A stretch of 64,000 bases of DNA from Bacteroidia bacterium (GTDB lineage Bacteria; Bacteroidota; Bacteroidia; Flavobacteriales; Flavobacteriaceae), in contig JAUIAY010000003.1 in assembly GCA_030425285.1 (NCBI GenBank), positions 124,001 to 188,000 of the forward strand. Reading direction: 5' to 3'. The position numbers and the translations under genes are program-made. The notes below the pieces were generated by a model that was not told the origin of the DNA, made no database searches, and saw nothing but the letters and a program-made list of their open reading frames with translations. Shown here in pieces: positions 19,666 to 59,392 of the stretch. How positions within the stretch are numbered: position 1 is the stretch's first letter; every line of letters starts with the position of its first letter.

Positions 19666-19807
19666 TCAAACCCTCCGTCCAGACGCTAAAGACCTAGTCA
19701 CCTCCCTTTATCTAAATAAACTAACCAGTTGGCAATACATCATAACTAAAGCTCCCCGCTTTAGTCAAAGAGGGGGTGGACAAACGCAGTTTGGACGGGG
19801 AGTTTGA
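19666..19807. repeat. TIR/hairpin repeat element, short form (copy A)
   Basis: This 142-bp element is bounded by TCAAACCCTCCGTCCAGAC at the left and, on the other strand, TCAAACTCCCCGTCCAAAC at the right. Inside are a CACCTCCCTTTATCTAAA arm that has lost its partner and a CCCC...AAAGAGGGG hairpin. A conserved 21-base spacer (TTTTAAACACATGGCTACTT-like) separates it from copy B. Confidence 0.8.
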
Positions 19808-19828: not shown

Positions 19829-20044
19829 TCAAACCCTCCGTCCAGACGCTAATGGTCTGGACACCTCCCTTTAGTAAAGGGAGGAGCCAATTGATAAATT
19901 AACTATAAATGGTACAGATCCCCTCTTTAGTTACGACCAAGCGTGTAGAATTAGTCCAGTGGACTAATTTAGCGAAGGTGCGAGCTTGCGCATTGGCAAT
20001 GAATTTACCGAAGTGACAACATAGATAAAGAAAGAGGAGTTTGA
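19829..20044. repeat. TIR/hairpin repeat element, long form (copy B)
   Basis: This 216-bp element starts TCAAACCCTCCGTCC and ends in GAGGAGTTTGA. Internal hairpins are CCTCCCTTTA/TAAAGGGAGG, AATTAGTCC/GGACTAATT (19949-19969) and GCGAGC/GCTTGC just after. The last part, GAATTTACCGAAGTGACAAC, recurs in the copies at 57.6-58.0 kb and in the decayed copy at 18.0 kb. Confidence 0.8.
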
Positions 20045-51583: not shown

Positions 51584-51640
51584 GCATCTTCTTTATTCTT
51601 AATTCTTTGTACTTATTACTAAATCCCTTGTACTCAATTC

Positions 51641-51728
51641 CTAATACCCACAACTGACTACTGACAACTGACAACGGTCAACCCACAACTGTCAACCCAC
51701 AACACACAACTGACAACCGACAACCACA
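51641..51728. repeat. 7-bp-periodic array between wzt and the four-helix-bundle gene
   Basis: Consecutive heptamers end in AAC almost without exception: TGACAAC, TGACAAC, GGTCAAC, CCACAAC, TGTCAAC, CCACAAC, ACACAAC, TGACAAC, CGACAAC. The array runs to the base before the stop codon of the four-helix-bundle gene at 51729. Confidence 0.8.
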
Positions 51729-52110: not shown

Positions 52111-52192
52111 TAACTCCCAACCGACAACACACAACAGGCAACACAACTGACAACAGACAACCCACAACCCACAACCGACAACCGACAACCGT
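52111..52192. repeat. 7-bp-periodic array between the four-helix-bundle gene and wzm
   Basis: Heptamers such as ACAGACA, ACCCACA, ACCCACA, ACCGACA, ACCGACA lead directly into the stop codon of wzm at 52193. The unit is related to, but not the same as, that of the array at 51641. Confidence 0.8.
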
Positions 52193-53059
52193 CTATACCG
52201 TATCAATAAACGTCTTCTCCGTCCTATTAAAAATAATGATCCCAACCAAAAACAGTAAAACACTAATAACAAGTGTATAGGAAAATCCAAACCAAGTAAA
52301 CGTACCCGTATCCAACAACATATACCGAAATCCCTCAATAATCTGGGTTAACGGATTGTACTCAACAAAGGTCGCCACCCAACCTGGAAACTTTTTATGC
52401 GCTTCAGAAAGAGGATAAGGTACAGCCGACATGTACATAAGCAACTGAACCCCAAAGCCAATAACCACCGTCATATCCCGGTATTTGGTAGTCATAGATG
52501 ACAGAATCATCCCCAGACCTAGACCCATTAAAGCCATCATCAAAATGTAAACTGGGAATAATAATAGACTCGTATTAGGTTGAACACCAGCTCCAATGCT
52601 CAAATAATACATATAAAATCCAAAAAAAATACCTAATTGTATAAAGAACTTTAATAAATTGGAAATCGTTACAGACATGGGCATAATCACTCGTGGGAAG
52701 TACACCTTCCCAAAAATATTCTGATTCTTATTAAAAGTATCACTAGTACCCGACAAGCATTCTTTAAAATAATTCCAAGCAGTAATACCAGCCAAATTAA
52801 ACAAAAAATTAGGTACCATACCCGTACTGATGCTTCCTAGATTATTAAAAATCAAGGTGAAAATTACAGAAGTAAACAACGGCTGGATCACGTACCACAA
52901 AGGTCCTAAAATAGTCTGCTTATAAACGGTGACAATATCCCGTTTCACAAACAGAATCAATAAATCCCGATAACGCCAAATCTCCTGAAAATTAAAGTCT
53001 ATAAGCTTGCGCTTGCTGGAAATGGTATAAAGCCACGGATCCCTGTCACTAATCGCCAA
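52193..53059 (-). CDS. wzm: Polysaccharide ABC exporter permease (Wzm)
   Basis: This 288-residue protein has six hydrophobic segments in an ABC-2 pattern. It contains YKQTILGPLWYVIQPLFTSV and, towards the C-terminus, FVEYNPLTQIIEGFRYMLL, both typical of Wzm, KpsM and TagG. It pairs with the Wzt ATPase to move undecaprenyl-linked glycan to the periplasm. Unlike most loci, wzm and wzt do not touch: about 600 bases with arrays and the four-helix-bundle gene lie between them. A GAGTAAT array lies about 80 bases upstream of its start. Confidence 0.94.
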   Translation of the reverse strand: MAISDRDPWLYTISSKRKLIDFNFQEIWRYRDLLILFVKRDIVTVYKQTILGPLWYVIQPLFTSVIFTLIFNNLGSISTGMVPNFLFNLAGITAWNYFKECLSGTSDTFNKNQNIFGKVYFPRVIMPMSVTISNLLKFFIQLGIFFGFYMYYLSIGAGVQPNTSLLLFPVYILMMALMGLGLGMILSSMTTKYRDMTVVIGFGVQLLMYMSAVPYPLSEAHKKFPGWVATFVEYNPLTQIIEGFRYMLLDTGTFTWFGFSYTLVISVLLFLVGIIIFNRTEKTFIDTV

Positions 53060-53615: not shown

Positions 53616-54040
53616 AATTTAAAATCTGCATTTAGTTAATAATAAAAAATCAACGACAAACAATACTAATCATTTTTATAAAAATGTACAAGAGAAAAAA
53701 CAGCAATTTTGAGTATGGATTAGCTATGGCTAGTGTATGGCTAGTGTATGGCTAGTGTATGGAAGGGGCATTTCAGCAGAAATAGTCATAAACAGTAGAA
53801 ATAGTCAAAAACAGCGAAAAATCACGAAAACAACAAATATGAACAAAGACAACACAAACAACAGATTTAAAAAACAACCCAAACAGTTTATAGCGACATT
53901 CGTATCAGGTACTTTGGCCTTCTAAAATAGGTTAAATGCAATTCAGCCTAGGCAACCTAAAGCGAAAGCCCCAAATCAGGTACCACAAGTTTAACCAGAA
54001 ACTGTATAACCCAAAACACAGTTTCACAAAACCTAATATC
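53616..54040. other. Divergent intergenic region with an 11-bp tandem repeat
   Basis: These 425 bases lie between two divergent genes of unknown function. Three exact tandem copies of ATGGCTAGTGT occupy 53726-53758, about one helical turn each. A run of CAGnAGAAATAGTCA-like repeats follows at about 53774-53812. The rest is A-rich. No convincing promoter box was found. Confidence 0.6.
53726..53762. repeat. 11-bp tandem repeat, three copies plus four bases
   Basis: ATGGCTAGTGT is repeated exactly three times, followed by ATGG. The 11-base period places the copies on one face of the helix, which would suit a protein-binding site array upstream of the divergent genes. Confidence 0.8.
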
Positions 54041-54790
54041 ATGGCAAAACTTAAAAGTTTTATCAAAATTGAAGGTACACTAGACGACTTGACCTTTTAT
54101 AAAGGTAAGGAAGGGTACCTTGTAAAAACCAAAAGCGCAGTAAGCGCTAAACGAATCAAATCAGATCCAGCATTCGCAAGAACCAGAGAAAATGGTTCCG
54201 AATTTGGACATGCGGCCAAAAGTGGAAAACTATTACGCCGTGCCATCCTTGACCTTTTGGCCGATGCCAAAGACGATTTAGTAACGGCAAGACTCACCCA
54301 AGTCATGACACAAGTCAAAAACGCCGATACAACATCGCCTCGCGGGCAACGTAATGTGGCTATAGGCTTGGCTACACCCACTGGAAAATTGGCGCTTAAT
54401 GGTTTCAATTTTAATGGCAATGCTATTCTAGGGAGCGTTCTATTGAGCGATTACACCCTAGATACGGCTACCGGCGAAATTGATATCCCAGATTTCGTGC
54501 CACAACAAAAACTGGCAAGTCCAGAAGGGGCTACACACGTGAGTCTGGAAACCGGATTCTTAAATTTGGACTTCGCCACAGATGATAAAGATCTGCAATT
54601 GAGCCCAATTTTTAATACGCCAATTAATAATACGGTAACCCCAGTTACCCTAACACCGGCAGCAGTTCCGTTAGGAAGTGGGAATCAGTTATATTTCTTA
54701 AAAGTAGCATTCTTTCAAGAAGTAAACGGCATACAATACCCACTAAACAACGGTGCTTATAATGCCCTGCAATTAATTGATGTATTGTAA
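54041..54790 (+). CDS. Conserved Bacteroidota protein of unknown function
   Basis: This 249-residue protein starts at ATG 54041, where MAKLKSFIKIEGTLDDLTFY begins. The open frame extends further upstream to 53936, but those codons look non-coding. I recognise the N-terminal pattern (GTLDDLTFYKGKEGYLVKTK, then KSDPAFARTRENGSEFG) from many Bacteroidota hypothetical proteins, but no function is known. The C-terminal half is rich in beta strands. No signal peptide is visible. A strong terminator follows, so it is transcribed alone or with something short upstream. Confidence 0.75.
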   Translation: MAKLKSFIKIEGTLDDLTFYKGKEGYLVKTKSAVSAKRIKSDPAFARTRENGSEFGHAAKSGKLLRRAILDLLADAKDDLVTARLTQVMTQVKNADTTSPRGQRNVAIGLATPTGKLALNGFNFNGNAILGSVLLSDYTLDTATGEIDIPDFVPQQKLASPEGATHVSLETGFLNLDFATDDKDLQLSPIFNTPINNTVTPVTLTPAAVPLGSGNQLYFLKVAFFQEVNGIQYPLNNGAYNALQLIDVL

Positions 54791-54810
54791 CCCGATACGC
54801 ACGTAATCAG

Positions 54811-54838
54811 AAAAGGAAGCTTCGGCTTCCTTTTTTTT
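54811..54838 (+). terminator. Strong intrinsic terminator with UUCG loop
   Basis: GGAAGC-TTCG-GCTTCC (54815-54830) is a perfect 6-bp stem with a UUCG tetraloop. It is preceded by four A and followed by eight T, 21 bases after the stop codon of the unknown-function gene. Confidence 0.93.
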
Positions 54839-54860
54839 ACAAAAAGCTTTAACCATATAT

Positions 54861-54987
54861 AATAACTATAAGCTCCCCTCTTTAGACAAAGAGGGGTGGA
54901 CAAACGCAGTTTGGACGGGGAGTTTGATTAAAAAAAAGGAAAATGATTTTACCGAAGTAATAACTTAGGTAAAGAAAGAGGAGTTTG
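54861..54987. repeat. Two right-hand halves of the TIR/hairpin repeat element
   Basis: The first part has the perfect hairpin CCCCTCTTT/AAAGAGGGG and ends GGACGGGGAGTTTGA at 54927. The second has ATTTTACCGAAGTAATAAC and ends GAGGAGTTTGA at 54987. Left ends are missing. The short-form and long-form right ends are thus next to each other here. Confidence 0.7.
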
Positions 54988-55015
54988 ATTAAAAAAAAGA
55001 CTTTTAAATGTGGTC

Positions 55016-55270
55016 AAATTGACCGGTGCAGGCCCAAGCGTCTGTAAATCTCAATATCACAAAAACTGCTGTCGTAAGCATAAAGCACAAAAGCTTCGAG
55101 AATTAGGGCTCAAGCGTTTAAAAATGATCCTGTGGATCATTTTAGCGAAGGAGCCAGCTGGCGGGATGGCATACCCGCGAAGTTTTGAGCTTGGTTCACC
55201 GAAGGTAAAATGCCTACCGACAGCAAAGGCACTTTTTGGTTCTTTTTTGTGCGTAAAAAAGAATAAACCA
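55016..55270. repeat. Diverged structured element related to the long repeat form
   Basis: CAAGCGTTTAAAAATGATCC-TGT-GGATCATTTT (stem at 55121-55143) followed by AGCGAAGG and GCCAGCTGGC matches, base pair for base pair, the hairpins of copies B and G, but with different stem sequences. Downstream lies a GGCACTTTTTGGTTCTTTTT block. An open frame crosses this part but looks non-coding. Confidence 0.6.
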
Positions 55271-55317
55271 AAAACACTTGTAATCCTGTCACGAAACTTT
55301 GGGAGATTCAGGGTTCA

Positions 55318-55453
55318 GTATCTACTGTCAACTGTCTCCCGCAAATCGTAAATCATGCACCGTCTTCGGTCAACTCACAACTCCCAACTACTGCCTACTG
55401 CCTACTGTCTTCCGTCTCCCATCTTCGGTCAACTCCCAACTCCCAACTCCCAA
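55318..55453. repeat. 7-bp-periodic array abutting the epimerase stop codon
   Basis: Heptamers include CCTACTG (twice), TCTTCCG, TCTCCCA and CCAACTC (three times), and they run to the end of the minus-strand epimerase gene at 55454. Units drift but the phase of seven is kept over about 130 bases. Confidence 0.75.
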
Positions 55454-56422
55454 CTACTGAAAAAACTCCCAAGTCAATTTCAACCCGTCCCTTACAGAAA
55501 CCTGCGGATCATAACCCAACAGGTCTTGAGCTTTAGAAATATCAGCCAAACTATCCCGAACATCCCCTTGGCGAGGCGGTCCATAAATAGCCTTTAAATC
55601 AGACTGGGCGGCCAGTTGCAAGGATTCCCAAAGATAGTTAACCGAAATACGCTCACCACAAGCGACATTAAAAACCTGGTTACGAGCTTTTTCATCAGCA
55701 AAAAAGCCTTTAATATTGGCCTGAACAGCATTATCAACATAAGTAAAATCACGTGTTTGTTCACCATCACCATTAATTTTGGGCGACTGATTGTCCTTCA
55801 ATGCCTGCATAAATAATGGAATAACCGCTGCATAAGCACCATTGGGGCTCTGTTTAGGACCAAACACATTAAAGTAGCGTAAACCTATGACATCAGTACC
55901 ATAGGTTTTCCCAAACACATCAGCATAGAGTTCGTTTACATATTTGGTAACGGCATAAGGTGATAAGGGTTTCCCAATGTTGTCTTCTATTTTAGGCAAG
56001 GTTTTACTATCCCCATAAGTCGAACTGGAAGCCGCATAGACCATACGTTTTACAGTACTAGAATCCTTCAAGGCAATCATCATATTCAAAAAACCGGATA
56101 TATTGACCGCATTGGTTGTGGCCGGATCATTAATAGATCTGGGTACCGAACCCAATGCCGCTTGATGCGAAACATAATCCATATCAACCATAGCTTGTTT
56201 ACAAGTATCCAAATCTCGAATATCCCCTTCTAGCAATTCAAAGGAAGGGTGATCCATAAACTCCCTTAGGTTTTCACGATAGCCATTCGAAAAATCATCA
56301 AGCACGCGTACTTTTTGGGCACCATGTTGCAAAAGATAACCAACCAGATTACTTCCAATGAACCCAGCTCCACCAGTTATTAAATAGCTATAGTCTTTTA
56401 TTTTGTTATTTACTTCTTTCAT
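55454..56422 (-). CDS. UDP-N-acetylhexosamine 4-epimerase-like (WbpP/TviC type SDR)
   Basis: This 322-residue extended short-chain dehydrogenase has NAD motif TGGAGFIGSNLVGYLL, a catalytic YAASSSTYGDS and SPYAVTKYVNELYAD (Tyr-x3-Lys), then LRYFNVFGPKQSPNGAYAAV. The last block and ARNQVFNVACGERISV are characteristic of WbpP, the UDP-GlcNAc/UDP-GalNAc epimerase. With the dehydrogenase at 58106 it predicts UDP-GalNAcA or a similar uronic acid. It is bounded by repeats on both sides, so it is a single-gene unit. The acceptor sugar is not certain. Confidence 0.88.
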   Translation of the reverse strand: MKEVNNKIKDYSYLITGGAGFIGSNLVGYLLQHGAQKVRVLDDFSNGYRENLREFMDHPSFELLEGDIRDLDTCKQAMVDMDYVSHQAALGSVPRSINDPATTNAVNISGFLNMMIALKDSSTVKRMVYAASSSTYGDSKTLPKIEDNIGKPLSPYAVTKYVNELYADVFGKTYGTDVIGLRYFNVFGPKQSPNGAYAAVIPLFMQALKDNQSPKINGDGEQTRDFTYVDNAVQANIKGFFADEKARNQVFNVACGERISVNYLWESLQLAAQSDLKAIYGPPRQGDVRDSLADISKAQDLLGYDPQVSVRDGLKLTWEFFQ

Positions 56423-56638
56423 CTTACTTATTGACTTGACTCATGAAATAAGATTTGAGGCGGTTCCCCAAATACATTTTTCCATAACGAATATTATTTT
56501 TGCTCATAATATTAAAGCTACGGTATAAAAATAAAACTAATTATAGGATAACAAACGAAATAATAAGCTAATTAGACAAAGCGATAAACCTAATCGAGCA
56601 ACTGTTAATGGAAGACACAAAGAAATTGCTATAATCAA
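56423..56638. other. Intergenic stretch upstream of the epimerase
   Basis: This AT-rich region must hold the epimerase promoter. The best -7-like site is the minus-strand reading of CAAATACA (about 56486-56493), one base off TAnnTTTG. Nothing else is seen before the repeats begin. Confidence 0.35.
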
Positions 56639-56803
56639 TCAAACCCTCCGTCTAAATCTTTTTTTATTAAAAAGCTTTAGCCACCTCCCTTTATCTAAAG
56701 GGAGGAGCCGGTTGGGAAACATCATAACTAAAAACTCCCCTCTTTAGTCAAAGAGGGGAATGAATTTGTCGTAGCTTGCGGAGACAAAGAAAGGGGAGTT
56801 TGA
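56639..56803. repeat. TIR/hairpin repeat element (copy D)
   Basis: This 165-bp element runs from TCAAACCCTCCGTCTAAATC to GGGGAGTTTGA. Hairpins CCTCCCTTTA-TC-TAAAGGGAGG and CCCCTCTTTAGTCAAAGAGGGG are perfect. The third part, GAATTTGTCGTAGCTTGCGGAGACAAAG, is an alternative right end unlike copies E and F. Confidence 0.8.
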
Positions 56804-56825
56804 TTTAAAATATATAATTACTATT

Positions 56826-56978
56826 ACAAACCCTCCGTCTAAATCTTTTTTTTTATTAAAAAGCCTTAGCCACCTCCCTTTATCTAAAGGGAGGAGCCGG
56901 TTGGGAAACAACATAACTAAAAGCTCCCCGCTTTAGTCAAAGAGGGGTGGGCAAACGCAGTTTGGACGGGGAGTTTGA
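56826..56978. repeat. TIR/hairpin repeat element, short form (copy E)
   Basis: This 153-bp copy runs from ACAAACCCTCCGTCTAAATC to GACGGGGAGTTTGA. It is nearly identical to copy F on the other side of the DUF559 gene. The left end has lost the leading T of TCAAAC. The two form a direct-repeat frame around that gene. Confidence 0.82.
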
Positions 56979-57025
56979 AAAAGAGACTAAAATATATTTA
57001 AAAAACTATAAATCACTATATTTAT

Positions 57026-57403
57026 ATGGTGACCAATCAAAGCTTACATAACAAAATCCAACTGAAAGCAAGAAGGCAGGAATTAAGAAAAAACCTGACT
57101 CCGGCTGAAGCGTTTTTATGGAAACATCTTAAGGCTAAACAATTTTACGGAAAGCGTTTTACCAAACAACATAGTATAGGTAATTATATTGTTGATTTTT
57201 ATTGTGCCTCTGAAAAGCTTGTTATTGAACTGGATGGTGAAGTCCACAACAATACCAAGGCTGAATCCTATGATGATATTAGAACAGATTATTTAAGGGC
57301 TTTAGGATATCTTGTTATCCGGTTTGAAAACAAAATGATGTTTGATAACTTACAATCTGTTTTGCAAGAAATTTCATCACATTTTAAAAAACCCTATTTA
57401 TAA
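57026..57403 (+). CDS. DUF559 endonuclease-like protein
   Basis: This 125-residue protein has the DUF559 pattern: LTPAEAFLWKHLKAKQFYGK, then IGNYIVDFYCASEKLVIELD with the G-E-V-H that follows. The D-x(9-11)-E-x-D arrangement matches the PD-(D/E)XK-like fold of Vsr mismatch endonuclease and its relatives. No substrate is known for this branch. The gene begins 47 bases after repeat copy E and ends five bases before copy F, so its only neighbours are repeat elements. It may be a passenger or the enzyme acting on them. Confidence 0.88.
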   Translation: MVTNQSLHNKIQLKARRQELRKNLTPAEAFLWKHLKAKQFYGKRFTKQHSIGNYIVDFYCASEKLVIELDGEVHNNTKAESYDDIRTDYLRALGYLVIRFENKMMFDNLQSVLQEISSHFKKPYL

Positions 57404-57408
57404 TTTAA

Positions 57409-57559
57409 TCAAACCCTTCGTCTAAATCTTTTTTTATTAAAAAGCTTTAGCCACCTCCCTTTATCTAAAGGGAGGAGCCGGTTGGGAAACATCATAACTA
57501 AAAGCTCCCCGCTTTAGTCAAAGAGGGGTGGGCAAACGCAGTTTGGACGGGGAGTTTGA
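57409..57559. repeat. TIR/hairpin repeat element, short form (copy F)
   Basis: This 151-bp copy is almost identical to copy E. It begins TCAAACCCTTCGTCTAAATC and ends GACGGGGAGTTTGA. Its start is five bases after the DUF559 stop codon. The spacer TTTTAAAAACATAGCTACCA leads to copy G. Confidence 0.82.
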
Positions 57560-57581
57560 TTTTAAAAACATAGCTACCATT

Positions 57582-57789
57582 TCAAACCCTCCATCCAGAT
57601 CCTAAAGACCTGCCCCCCTTTATCTCAAGAAACTAATCTGTTGACAGTACAATATAACTAAAGCTCCCCGCTTCAGATGCGACCAAACGTATAGAATTAG
57701 TCCACTGGACTAATTTAGTGAAAGGCGAGCTTGCGCATTGGCAATGAATTTACTGAAGTGATAACGGAAGTAAATAAAGAGGCGTTTGA
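57582..57789. repeat. TIR/hairpin repeat element, long form (copy G)
   Basis: This 208-bp copy resembles copy B. It contains AATTAGTCC-ACT-GGACTAATT at 57695-57715, GCGAGCTTGC, and GAATTTACTGAAGTGATAAC. The left hairpin is damaged (CCCCCCTTTATC...). It ends GGCGTTTGA and is followed by the same spacer as after copy F. Confidence 0.75.
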
Positions 57790-57810
57790 TTTTAAAACAT
57801 AGCTACCATT

Positions 57811-57978
57811 TCAAACCCTCCGTCTAAACCTTTTCTAAAAAAGCTTTAGCCACCTCCCTTTAACTAAAGGGAGGAGCCTGTTGGTAAATTAATTACAACT
57901 TGTACTGCTCTCCTCTTCAGATGAAGAGGAGAATGAATTTACTGAAGTGATAACGCAAGTAAAGAAAGAGGAGTTTGA
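57811..57978. repeat. TIR/hairpin repeat element (copy H)
   Basis: This 168-bp copy runs from TCAAACCCTCCGTCTAAAC to GAGGAGTTTGA. Hairpins are CCTCCCTTTA-AC-TAAAGGGAGG and CTCCTCTTC-AGAT-GAAGAGGAG. Compared with other copies, the second stem has paired substitutions on both arms. Confidence 0.8.
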
Positions 57979-57989
57979 TTAAAAAAAGA

Positions 57990-58105
57990 CACTACCTACT
58001 GACTACACTTACTGTCACTGTCTTCTATCTGCTGTCTACAGTCTATTCTCTACGATCTACCGTCTACCAACTAACACCAAATGCCTATCCTCTACTGCCC
58101 ACTGT
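57990..58105. repeat. 7-bp-periodic array abutting the UDP-sugar dehydrogenase stop codon
   Basis: Heptamers based on CTGTCTA, CTACTGC and ACTGTCT drift along about 115 bases and end at the stop codon of the minus-strand dehydrogenase gene at 58106. Confidence 0.7.
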
Positions 58106-59392
58106 CTACAACCGCGCATCAACTATATCTTTAGGAAGCAATGATTTCACATCAAACACCACACAGTTTTCAGATTTCAACTGGTTAATATCCAATTCCA
58201 AAAACTCATTATGACTCACCGCTAATACGATAGCTTCGTAGGTATCTGCCAATTCGGAAGCATCGGTTAACAATTCAAAACCGTATTCTTCACGCACCTC
58301 TTCTTTAGAGGCCCAAGGATCATAAACATCTACATGCACATGGTAGGTTTCAAATTCCCTAATAATATCAATAGCTCTAGAGTTTCTAATATCTGGACAG
58401 TTTTCTTTAAAAGTAATACCCAACACCAATACACGGGAGCCTTTAATAGTGGCACCTTTCTTAATCATCATTTTTACCGTTTCGGTTGCCACATAACCGC
58501 CCATACTATCATTCATTTTCCGACCTGCCAGAATAATTTCTGGGTTATAGCCACTTTCTATGGCTTTTTGCGCTAGATAATACGGATCGACACCAATACA
58601 ATGACCACCAACCAATCCAGGAGTAAACTTGATAAAGTTCCATTTGGTACCTGCTGCTTCTAAAACAGCTTGGGTGTCAATATCCAATAATCTAAATATT
58701 TTTGACAATTCATTGACAAAAGCAATATTGATATCCCGTTGCGAATTCTCTATCACTTTGGCTGCTTCGGCTACTTTAATGGACGGTGCCTTATGGGTGC
58801 CAGCAGTGATAATGGATTGATACAAGTCATCCACCACATCTGCTATTTCAGGTGTTGATCCTGATGTAACCTTCAAAATTTTGGTGACCGTATGTTTCTT
58901 ATCTCCTGGGTTAATACGTTCAGGCGAATAACCTGCGTAAAAATCAATGTTAAACTGGAGTCCTGAAACCGACTCTAAAATAGGCACACAGATATCCTCG
59001 GTAACACCTGGATAAACTGTCGATTCATAAATAACAATATCACCCTTCTTAAGCACACCACCAATAGTTTCACTGGCCTTAATAAGCGGCGTAAAAATGG
59101 GCTTGTTTAACTCGTCTGTCGGAGTCGGGACCGTAATAATATAAATGTTGGATGCTTGTAAATCGGCAACAGAATCAGTTATAAAAAGTCCGGTATCATC
59201 CGTACTGTTAACTAGTACCGATTGTAATTCCGGTGACGCGACTTCCAGGGTACGGTCTGTACCTTCCCGTAGTTCGCCAACACGTTTGGTGTTGATATCG
59301 AAACCAACAACCGGAAACTTTTTGGCAAACTCCACAGCCAAGGGCAGTCCGACATATCCTAATCCTATAATGGCAATCTTTTGTTTTTGCAT
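58106..59392 (-). CDS. UDP-sugar 6-dehydrogenase (WbpO/TviB-type)
   Basis: This 428-residue enzyme has NAD loop IGLGYVGLPLAVEFAKK, the central GTKWNFIKFTPGLVGGHCIG with catalytic Cys, and PDIRNSRAIDIIREF. This layout is that of UDP-GlcNAc/GalNAc dehydrogenases that make uronic acids for O-antigen and capsules. With the 4-epimerase gene, UDP-GalNAcA is a likely product. It lies 29 bases downstream of the Wzc-like gene and probably on its transcript. The exact sugar is inferred. Confidence 0.9.
   Translation of the reverse strand: MQKQKIAIIGLGYVGLPLAVEFAKKFPVVGFDINTKRVGELREGTDRTLEVASPELQSVLVNSTDDTGLFITDSVADLQASNIYIITVPTPTDELNKPIFTPLIKASETIGGVLKKGDIVIYESTVYPGVTEDICVPILESVSGLQFNIDFYAGYSPERINPGDKKHTVTKILKVTSGSTPEIADVVDDLYQSIITAGTHKAPSIKVAEAAKVIENSQRDINIAFVNELSKIFRLLDIDTQAVLEAAGTKWNFIKFTPGLVGGHCIGVDPYYLAQKAIESGYNPEIILAGRKMNDSMGGYVATETVKMMIKKGATIKGSRVLVLGITFKENCPDIRNSRAIDIIREFETYHVHVDVYDPWASKEEVREEYGFELLTDASELADTYEAIVLAVSHNEFLELDINQLKSENCVVFDVKSLLPKDIVDARL

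Follow-up and report, generated by a model that had tools for sequence, protein, structure and literature searches.

The window, a stretch of 64,000 nucleotides from the 3.1-Mb genome of a Bacteroidia bacterium, encodes on its forward strand a 125 amino acid DUF559 nuclease (57026..57403) of the PD-(D/E)XK / Vsr / I-Bth0305I-like type, assigned by its fold and by its match to the family PF04480/DUF559 (E=5.3e-34, Pfam scan). The gene occupies an intergenic site (56423..58105) between two genes on the reverse strand, which, based on sequence recognition, we take to be an epimerase-type gene (55454-56422) and a nucleotide-sugar dehydrogenase-type gene (58106-59392).

Two copies of a repeat, E and F, frame the gene. 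A full copy is about 150 nt long and consists of two halves, mutually inverted. In copy E, the left half (56826..56900, +; 59.0 bits with R1, a covariance model of the half-repeat) has a TCAAACCCTCCGTC tag, a variable middle, and a CCTCCCTTT..AAAGGGAGG hairpin, and the inverted right half (56920..56978, -; 62.2 bits) is 47 nt 5′ of the start codon. Copy F has its left half 5 nt 3′ of the stop codon (57409..57481, +; 54.9 bits), followed by an inverted right half (57501..57559, -; 62.2 bits). The initial annotation placed the gene 47 nt after one copy and 5 nt before a nearly identical one; the coordinates agree, and the two copies are 97–98% identical (98% over 131 nt and 96.7% over 152 nt). 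Folded as single-strand DNA, copies E and F have z = -3.2 and -4.5.

Between the two neighboring genes, four to five repeat copies form a tandem array, of which the unit is a part. An extra upstream copy has a left half (56639..56711, +; 61.7 bits) and a right half with a differing inner stretch (56731..56803, -; 35.2 bits), and an extra downstream copy likewise has a left half (57811..57880, +; 65.3 bits) and a right half (57904..57978, -; 21.7 bits). Between copy F and the downstream copy is a degenerate copy (57582..57796, repeat families D5-D7), of which R1 sees the left part alone, weakly (9.3 bits, 57582-57636). A lone right half is found about 2 kb 5′ of the DUF559 gene (54869..54927, -; 63.4 bits). 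In the same region, 37 kb off, are half of a distant copy (19748..19807, -; 58.5 bits) and the left half of an adjoining distant copy (19829..19890, +; 55.3 bits). An R1 search of the 3.1-Mb genome returned ten half-repeat matches and a 1-kb DNA query with the gene and repeats returned six matches, none of them outside the window. A distant blastn search of the unit against a plasmid collection gave no match. Rfam models over 54000-59000 gave nothing near a gathering score, the best being PyrR with 30.5 bits vs 54. Short tandem arrays of the CAACTGA / CAACTCC type (families D2 and D10) also occur in the window, at 51630-51725, 52130-52204, and 55360-55460.

The left half in the window reads TCAAACCCTCCGTC, then the variable middle, then CCACCTCCCTTT..AAAGGGAGGAGC, and the right half has the inverted scheme. 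We compared 27 half-elements from many genera, and they share the scheme AANCNCCCCG / middle / CCACCCCTCTTT..AAGNGGGGAGC. The hairpin stem is 97.7% paired, with changes on both sides at three of the eight pairs (covariation). Middles of at least 14 nt could form a stem of at least 6 bp in 17 of 26 halves, where shuffled sequences lead one to expect 0.4.

The same intergenic site is compact in G299 and G013, where the aligned gaps are 48 nt and 60 nt, respectively; in G300 and G301 it holds a DUF559 gene with repeats. In G230 (locus L148, G230:C7:372001-380000) there is a different unit, with inverted GTCATTGCGAG..GCAATCTC repeats around a reading frame that we take, by sequence recognition, to be of the GIY-YIG type. 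Pairing as a general rule for GIY-YIG genes and GTCATTGCGAG repeats was rejected, as this repeat is on both sides at 2/30 GIY-YIG loci; the GCTTGTCGA repeat is on both sides at 1/30. By eye, 56430-56485 of the window resembles the end of a GIY-YIG-type gene, of which G301 has a longer stretch in this position. It seems that nuclease units enter this site repeatedly.

The window protein has D57, H74, and D83 invariant and E68 and D70 conserved in at least 90% of 72 aligned sequences. We take these five residues to have a catalytic role. The conserved acidic and histidine positions are broadly like those of the EDxHD/Vsr-like homing endonucleases. An AlphaFold2 model (mean pLDDT 87.6) is nearest to 3hrl (Z 15.0), a DUF559-like protein by profile, followed by I-Bth0305I (3r3p_A; Z 10.9, rmsd 2.8, 93 aligned; sequence E=2.3e-5) and by Vsr (Z 9.5 and 8.8). 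The resemblance to Vsr suggested in the initial annotation holds at the level of fold (Z 9.5), with I-Bth0305I (Z 10.9) taking its place as the closer relative. A Pfam scan of the 125 amino acid protein detected DUF559 and an overlapping sub-threshold match to MTES_1575, and no extra DNA-binding domain that might account for the choice of site, a point against the homing reading given below.

Association of the gene with C-rich hairpins

We analyzed the flanks of 80 loci; among the matches listed, these are nearest to the window protein, and they are not a random sample. A direct repeat of at least 40 bits is common to both 400-nt flanks at 39 of these 80 listed loci, and inverted repeats between the 400-nt flanks occur at 8. 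Control flank pairs taken 2 kb further out have neither (0/66 direct, 0/66 inverted), which excludes chance as the source of the flank repeats. A C-rich hairpin is present within 500 nt of the gene at 70/80 loci among the matches listed, on both sides in 37. Summed over these listed loci, there are 131 C-rich hairpins within 250 nt and 7 in about 335 kb beyond 750 nt. When intergenic DNA alone is counted, there are 119 in 29.3 kb near the gene vs 3 in 30.4 kb far from it, a density that is 41-fold higher near the DUF559 gene than in intergenic DNA further out. Hairpins of other kinds rise twofold near the gene and no more. GIY-YIG nuclease genes from this bacterial family have a C-rich hairpin beside them at 1/30 loci.

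Ten of the 80 loci among the matches listed have no C-rich hairpin, and four of the ten have other direct repeats. None of the ten is among the five loci L109 (Ignavibacteriae), L113 and L114 (Desulfobacterales), and L115 and L116 (Patescibacteria/Moranbacteria). A second sample, drawn by Pfam score and sharing genomes with the first, has C-rich flank hairpins at 36/51 loci; ten loci with ORFs of 346-395 amino acids, most of them HemD fusions, are counted there as stand-alone. At the level of sequence, we show that the gene and the halves co-occur across Bacteroidota and also in a few other lineages. The counts of flank repeats, the hairpin enrichment, and the GIY-YIG control rule out a purely local curiosity or chance. 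Loci L053, L067, and L079 also have extra DUF559 frames next to the first; in the tree described below they contribute three, two, and two domain rows, respectively, which would fit tandem copying of the entire unit.

R1 was searched, with stricter filters, in 100 genomes, one per genus, whose DUF559 classes (G000-G099) were read from a match table reaching about 6e-27. Among the matches listed, R1 is found in 17/27 genera with a stand-alone DUF559 gene (two of the genes, in G040 and G044, have an internal stop) and not in the other ten. R1 matches are absent from the genera with insertions or fusions alone (0/8), a count biased by the building of R1 from halves beside stand-alone genes. They occur in 3/65 genera without a strong match, a class that includes G002 (degenerate LeuRS insert), G013 (E 2.3e-10), and G088 (2.7e-4). 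For stand-alone genera vs the rest, the difference among the matches listed is 17/27 vs 3/73 (Fisher p = 1e-9). The match is within 1 kb of the gene in 13/16 stand-alone genomes where 0.11 are expected; this test omits G076, and for G094 and G096 it counts every match except the gene-side one as "far". Inside the genus, R1 counts are 10 in G000, 9 in G301, 7 in G300, 2 in G299, and 0 in G230. No DUF559 match was found in G230; in G299 there are a partial match and one DUF559 copy interrupted by a stop, nothing else. DUF559 copies with an internal stop, such as L140 (G299:C1:723943-724263), are found in other places also and are apparently decaying.

These results bear on two proposals of the initial annotation. 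That the gene and the repeat form a new nuclease-repeat pair, enriched in other genomes, is supported by the per-genus association and by the enrichment (70/80 loci among the matches listed, 41-fold, with 1/30 for GIY-YIG genes). The expectation that genomes without the gene would also be without repeat expansion mostly holds, in that R1 is found in 3/73 vs 17/27 genera among the matches listed and has no match in G230.

Repeats may also be far from any gene copy. Two genomes, G094 and G096, have 28 and 41 R1 matches dispersed on many contigs and one DUF559 match each, among the matches listed. We read 13 of these stretches, and they are inverted pairs of halves, partly changed in one, of the same general type as the halves beside the DUF559 gene of their genome. 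By their arrangement, we read the dispersed inverted pairs as having the REPIN layout. At the dispersed repeats, G094 and G297 differ by rearrangements, and their intergenic DNA has diverged too far for an empty-site comparison.

In-frame modules in housekeeping genes

The second DUF559 match in the genome of the window sits inside methionine synthase (MetH). An in-frame insert is present at 4/30 MetH loci (G000, G300, G015, and G307), and at the other 26 there is a linker, 26-44 nt long. With the module in place, the MetH of the window genome still passes the NCBIfam cut-offs for methionine synthase. In G301, MetH is empty, and its flanks match those of G000 with 92.6% and 94.3% identity. Between G000 and G300, the insert is 92.5% identical and the flanks 93.3 and 89.7%, so that the insert is no more alike than its surroundings and a recent transfer is not demonstrated there.

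The leucyl-tRNA synthetases (LeuRS, assigned by NCBIfam) of 14 genomes were examined, and they hold the module in a linker. Border hairpins are on both sides of 10/14 of these inserts, on one side of 2, and on neither side of 2; control windows within the module have none (0/28). LeuRS carriers make up 4/99 sampled genomes, as read from the table, and the LeuRS copy of the module at L231 is degenerate. In genera other than those with the module, the same LeuRS linker contains different in-frame repeats, for example GTCATTGCGAGCGAAGCGAAGCAATCTC, at L235, L240, L249, L254, and L255. The RecG of G006 has the module between its DEAD and Helicase_C domains; the flanks of this site abut in G317, G318, and G240 of the same genus. 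The module was seen in the RecG of 1/59 genomes, and 26/30 RecG loci were parsed by the anchors.

By a strict measure, a C/G-run hairpin is at one border at least of 3/4 MetH inserts and of the single RecG insert. Sites without the module have none (MetH 0/26, RecG 0/25, and LeuRS 0/27), which indicates that the palindromes arrived with the module. At the borders in RecG and MetH, part of the host linker is altered, and no target-site duplication was seen there by eye.

Further carriers were identified with NCBIfam. These include an isoleucine--tRNA ligase (IleRS) at L324 (743.6 bits vs a cut-off of 621.4), a histidinol dehydrogenase with the module at its end (L022), and, below the NCBIfam cut-off, a protein of the uroporphyrinogen-III synthase type (L013) and an RlmB/TrmH-type methyltransferase (L103), both with the module at the start. 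L092 is called a TrmH-type carrier by its likeness to L103 alone. Intein families were found neither in the RecG carrier (Pfam) nor in the MetH, LeuRS, and IleRS carriers (NCBIfam). Reading the long-ORF DUF559 loci as fusions to helicases proved incorrect in the case of MetH and LeuRS. These long-ORF loci scored 0/18 for flank hairpins because their hairpins are inside the reading frame, at the borders of the module. The sequences show that such halves bound the DUF559 module at intergenic sites and also, for the majority of the cases checked, where it lies in frame within a housekeeping gene.

The MetH of G215 has two DUF559 modules at two sites. They align without gaps over 417 nt (139 codons) with 82.5% identity, a level indicating that the copying was not recent. 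The homology starts with GCCCCCCAACCCCCAAAGGGGGAGC and ends with the inverted counterpart of GCCCCCCAACCCCCAAAGGGGGAGC, and both ends of the units have inverted GCCCCCC-nn-CCCCCAAAGGGGGAGC-like palindromes. The inserts contain the DUF559 module and the palindromes and nothing more. At the second of the two sites, the MetH of G000 has a plain linker of 45 nt. As the homology is bounded by the terminal palindromes, the palindromic halves are the ends of the mobile unit.

A tree of 171 modules, which has few columns and many unresolved forks, places the LeuRS, MetH, RecG, and HisD carriers in one group of 38 rows (100/93). The 122 intergenic modules are apart from this group, and the HemD and TrmH-type fusions fall on the intergenic side. 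The RecG modules form one group (98/64), and the MetH lineages and part of the LeuRS lineages also cluster by site. Site labels change 12 times on the tree vs 47.9 times when shuffled. The insertion site therefore tracks the nuclease lineage, as homing or descent would predict. Loci L274 and L277 are outside the analysis and L275 is in the tree only.

Explanations for the pairing

Taken together, the genome comparisons show the pairing of the gene with the repeat and the unit that the two form, with halves that are found dispersed, without a gene, as inverted pairs. We consider it probable that this unit is a small homing-type mobile element with the DUF559 gene as cargo, palindromic halves as ends, and dispersed repeats as copies that have no nuclease. 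Such an element would consist of the nuclease gene and two inverted palindromic half-element ends, each end having a C-rich tag, an optional variable stem-loop, and a C-rich/G-rich hairpin. We infer that the DUF559 nuclease cuts DNA, and it may cut either the empty target or the palindromic ends. Repair would then copy the unit into the cut site. The element could spread without splicing in intergenic spacers and protein linkers that tolerate the insertion. Dispersed repeats may be mobilized in trans or be left after loss of the gene. The fold and the occupied and empty alleles favor homing by a double-strand break, and the in-frame insertions into housekeeping proteins shift the reading further towards homing. 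Since the intergenic and in-frame lineages are separate, a single mechanism for both is an extrapolation.

The main rival to homing, which we regard as unlikely, is that the nuclease acts as RAYT proteins do on hairpins. The protein would nick and paste single-stranded or extruded hairpin halves in replication, and its gene would be a largely stationary helper. This would fit the many half matches and one DUF559 match each in G094 and G096 (28 and 41 half matches among the matches listed), where the inverted pairs that were read resemble the gene-side halves. It would also fit the covariation in the hairpin stem and the potential stems of the middles (at least 6 bp in 17/26 halves vs 0.4 expected). 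However, the closest characterized relative by fold is a homing endonuclease, and the gene itself travels with the palindromes, given the two copies in one MetH and the empty MetH and RecG sites. It is still less probable that the palindromes are prior insertion hot spots or terminators, between which a DUF559 gene lands or which it acquires as transcription signals. The halves do resemble terminators, and the different nuclease unit at the same site in G230 suggests a site that attracts insertions. This rival is already weakened by the empty MetH, RecG, and LeuRS sites, which are free of palindromes (0/26, 0/25, and 0/27), by palindromes that lie inside reading frames at the borders of modules, and by the near absence of C-rich hairpins from GIY-YIG genes of the same family (1/30).

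Two other explanations separate the nuclease from mobility. DUF559 could be a resident repair or defense nuclease of the Vsr type in lineages where an unrelated family of intergenic repeats is common, as the fold match to Vsr would allow and as the genetic link of the Caulobacter DUF559 protein VsrA to DNA damage might suggest (PMC12907096). We find this very improbable, in view of the 41-fold local enrichment over intergenic DNA, the per-genus association, and the hairpins at in-frame module borders; it is contradicted for the sampled families and may apply to other branches of DUF559. Alternatively, the in-frame lineages could be domesticated as fixed accessory domains with a new function in LeuRS, MetH, or RecG, and the palindromes would be fossils. 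Domestication would agree with the use of the same linkers by in-frame modules of several genera, with the clustering by site of the RecG and MetH lineages and of some LeuRS lineages, and with the MetH carrier of the window genome, which exceeds its NCBIfam cut-offs. Yet the presence of the modules is patchy (MetH 4/30 loci, LeuRS 4/99 genomes, and RecG 1/59 genomes) and the LeuRS copy L231 is degenerate, and we give this idea hardly any credence.

Comparison with known systems

The homing-type element that we favor can be set beside several described systems. The EDxHD/Vsr-like homing endonucleases are like the window protein in sequence and fold and likewise form patchy insertions at conserved sites of conserved genes. 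In a cyanobacterial genome paper, a DUF559 gene is assigned to the EDxHD family (PMC9403480). These endonucleases have an extra DNA-binding region tethered to the catalytic domain (PMC3943268). In contrast to the I-Bth0305I type, the 125 amino acid protein has no such extra region, no intein or intron was seen, and the insert keeps the reading frame and has palindromic terminal halves around it.

Vsr and the VsrA of Caulobacter are related by fold (Vsr Z 9.5 and 8.8) and, in the case of VsrA, by a DUF559 domain (PMC12907096). VsrA is described as genetically tied to DNA damage and as a proposed mismatch-repair nuclease (PMC12907096), whereas the association that we found is with palindromes. 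An insertion sequence or composite transposon would have a transposase gene and a target-site duplication; the unit encodes DUF559 alone, and its borders in MetH and RecG showed no duplication when inspected by eye. A Legionella evolution experiment counts stretches that hold a transposase and a DUF559 gene among its hot spots of mutation and recombination (PMC12308824).

A parallel in layout is the REPtron (RAYT/REP), in which a TnpA-REP (RAYT) gene, coding for an HUH enzyme, is paired with REP/BIME/REPIN repeats (PMC8266576). Common to both are a nuclease gene beside palindromes, inverted pairs that are dispersed, and a repeat that tracks the gene by genus. The REP tetranucleotide is "most often GTAG" (PMC8266576), whereas the consensus of the 27 half-elements has no GTAG tag. 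The nuclease is PD-(D/E)XK by Pfam and by its nearest structures and not an HUH Y1 transposase, and the unit also inserts in frame into proteins. The composite mobile unit or RAYT-like layout that was initially suggested is retained as a mobile unit, with a likeness to RAYT in mechanism alone and without the HUH transposase. Rickettsia palindromic elements (RPE) are likewise palindromes that are in frame in conserved proteins and also intergenic (PMC2229807). The passages on RPE that we read name no mobilizer (PMC2229807), whereas here a nuclease gene is framed; the organisms differ, and the likeness is one of layout. In the accessible parts of the open-licence literature, we found no description of a DUF559-palindrome pairing or of a DUF559 in-frame insertion.

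An unrelated nuclease family that travels with palindromes bears on how short palindromic repeats spread in bacteria. A 2007 review leaves the movement of small repeats to future work (PMC2229807), and TnpA-REP is presented as the worked example for REPs, with a dissemination mechanism still to be elucidated (PMC8266576). The empty and occupied alleles in close relatives, together with a duplicated unit that marks the ends, make the question of repeat spread directly testable. That the modules persist in LeuRS, IleRS, MetH, and RecG with no splicing domain is relevant to genome annotation and to domain gain in multidomain proteins. We lean, by a modest preference, towards a distinct class of mobile element, in which DUF559 with self-folding inverted palindromic ends would form a frame-preserving unit of about 420 nt that invades linkers of essential proteins without splicing and leaves REPIN-like repeats. 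If this is true, the unit would be a non-HUH counterpart of RAYT/REP and a candidate mover of in-frame palindromes such as RPE.
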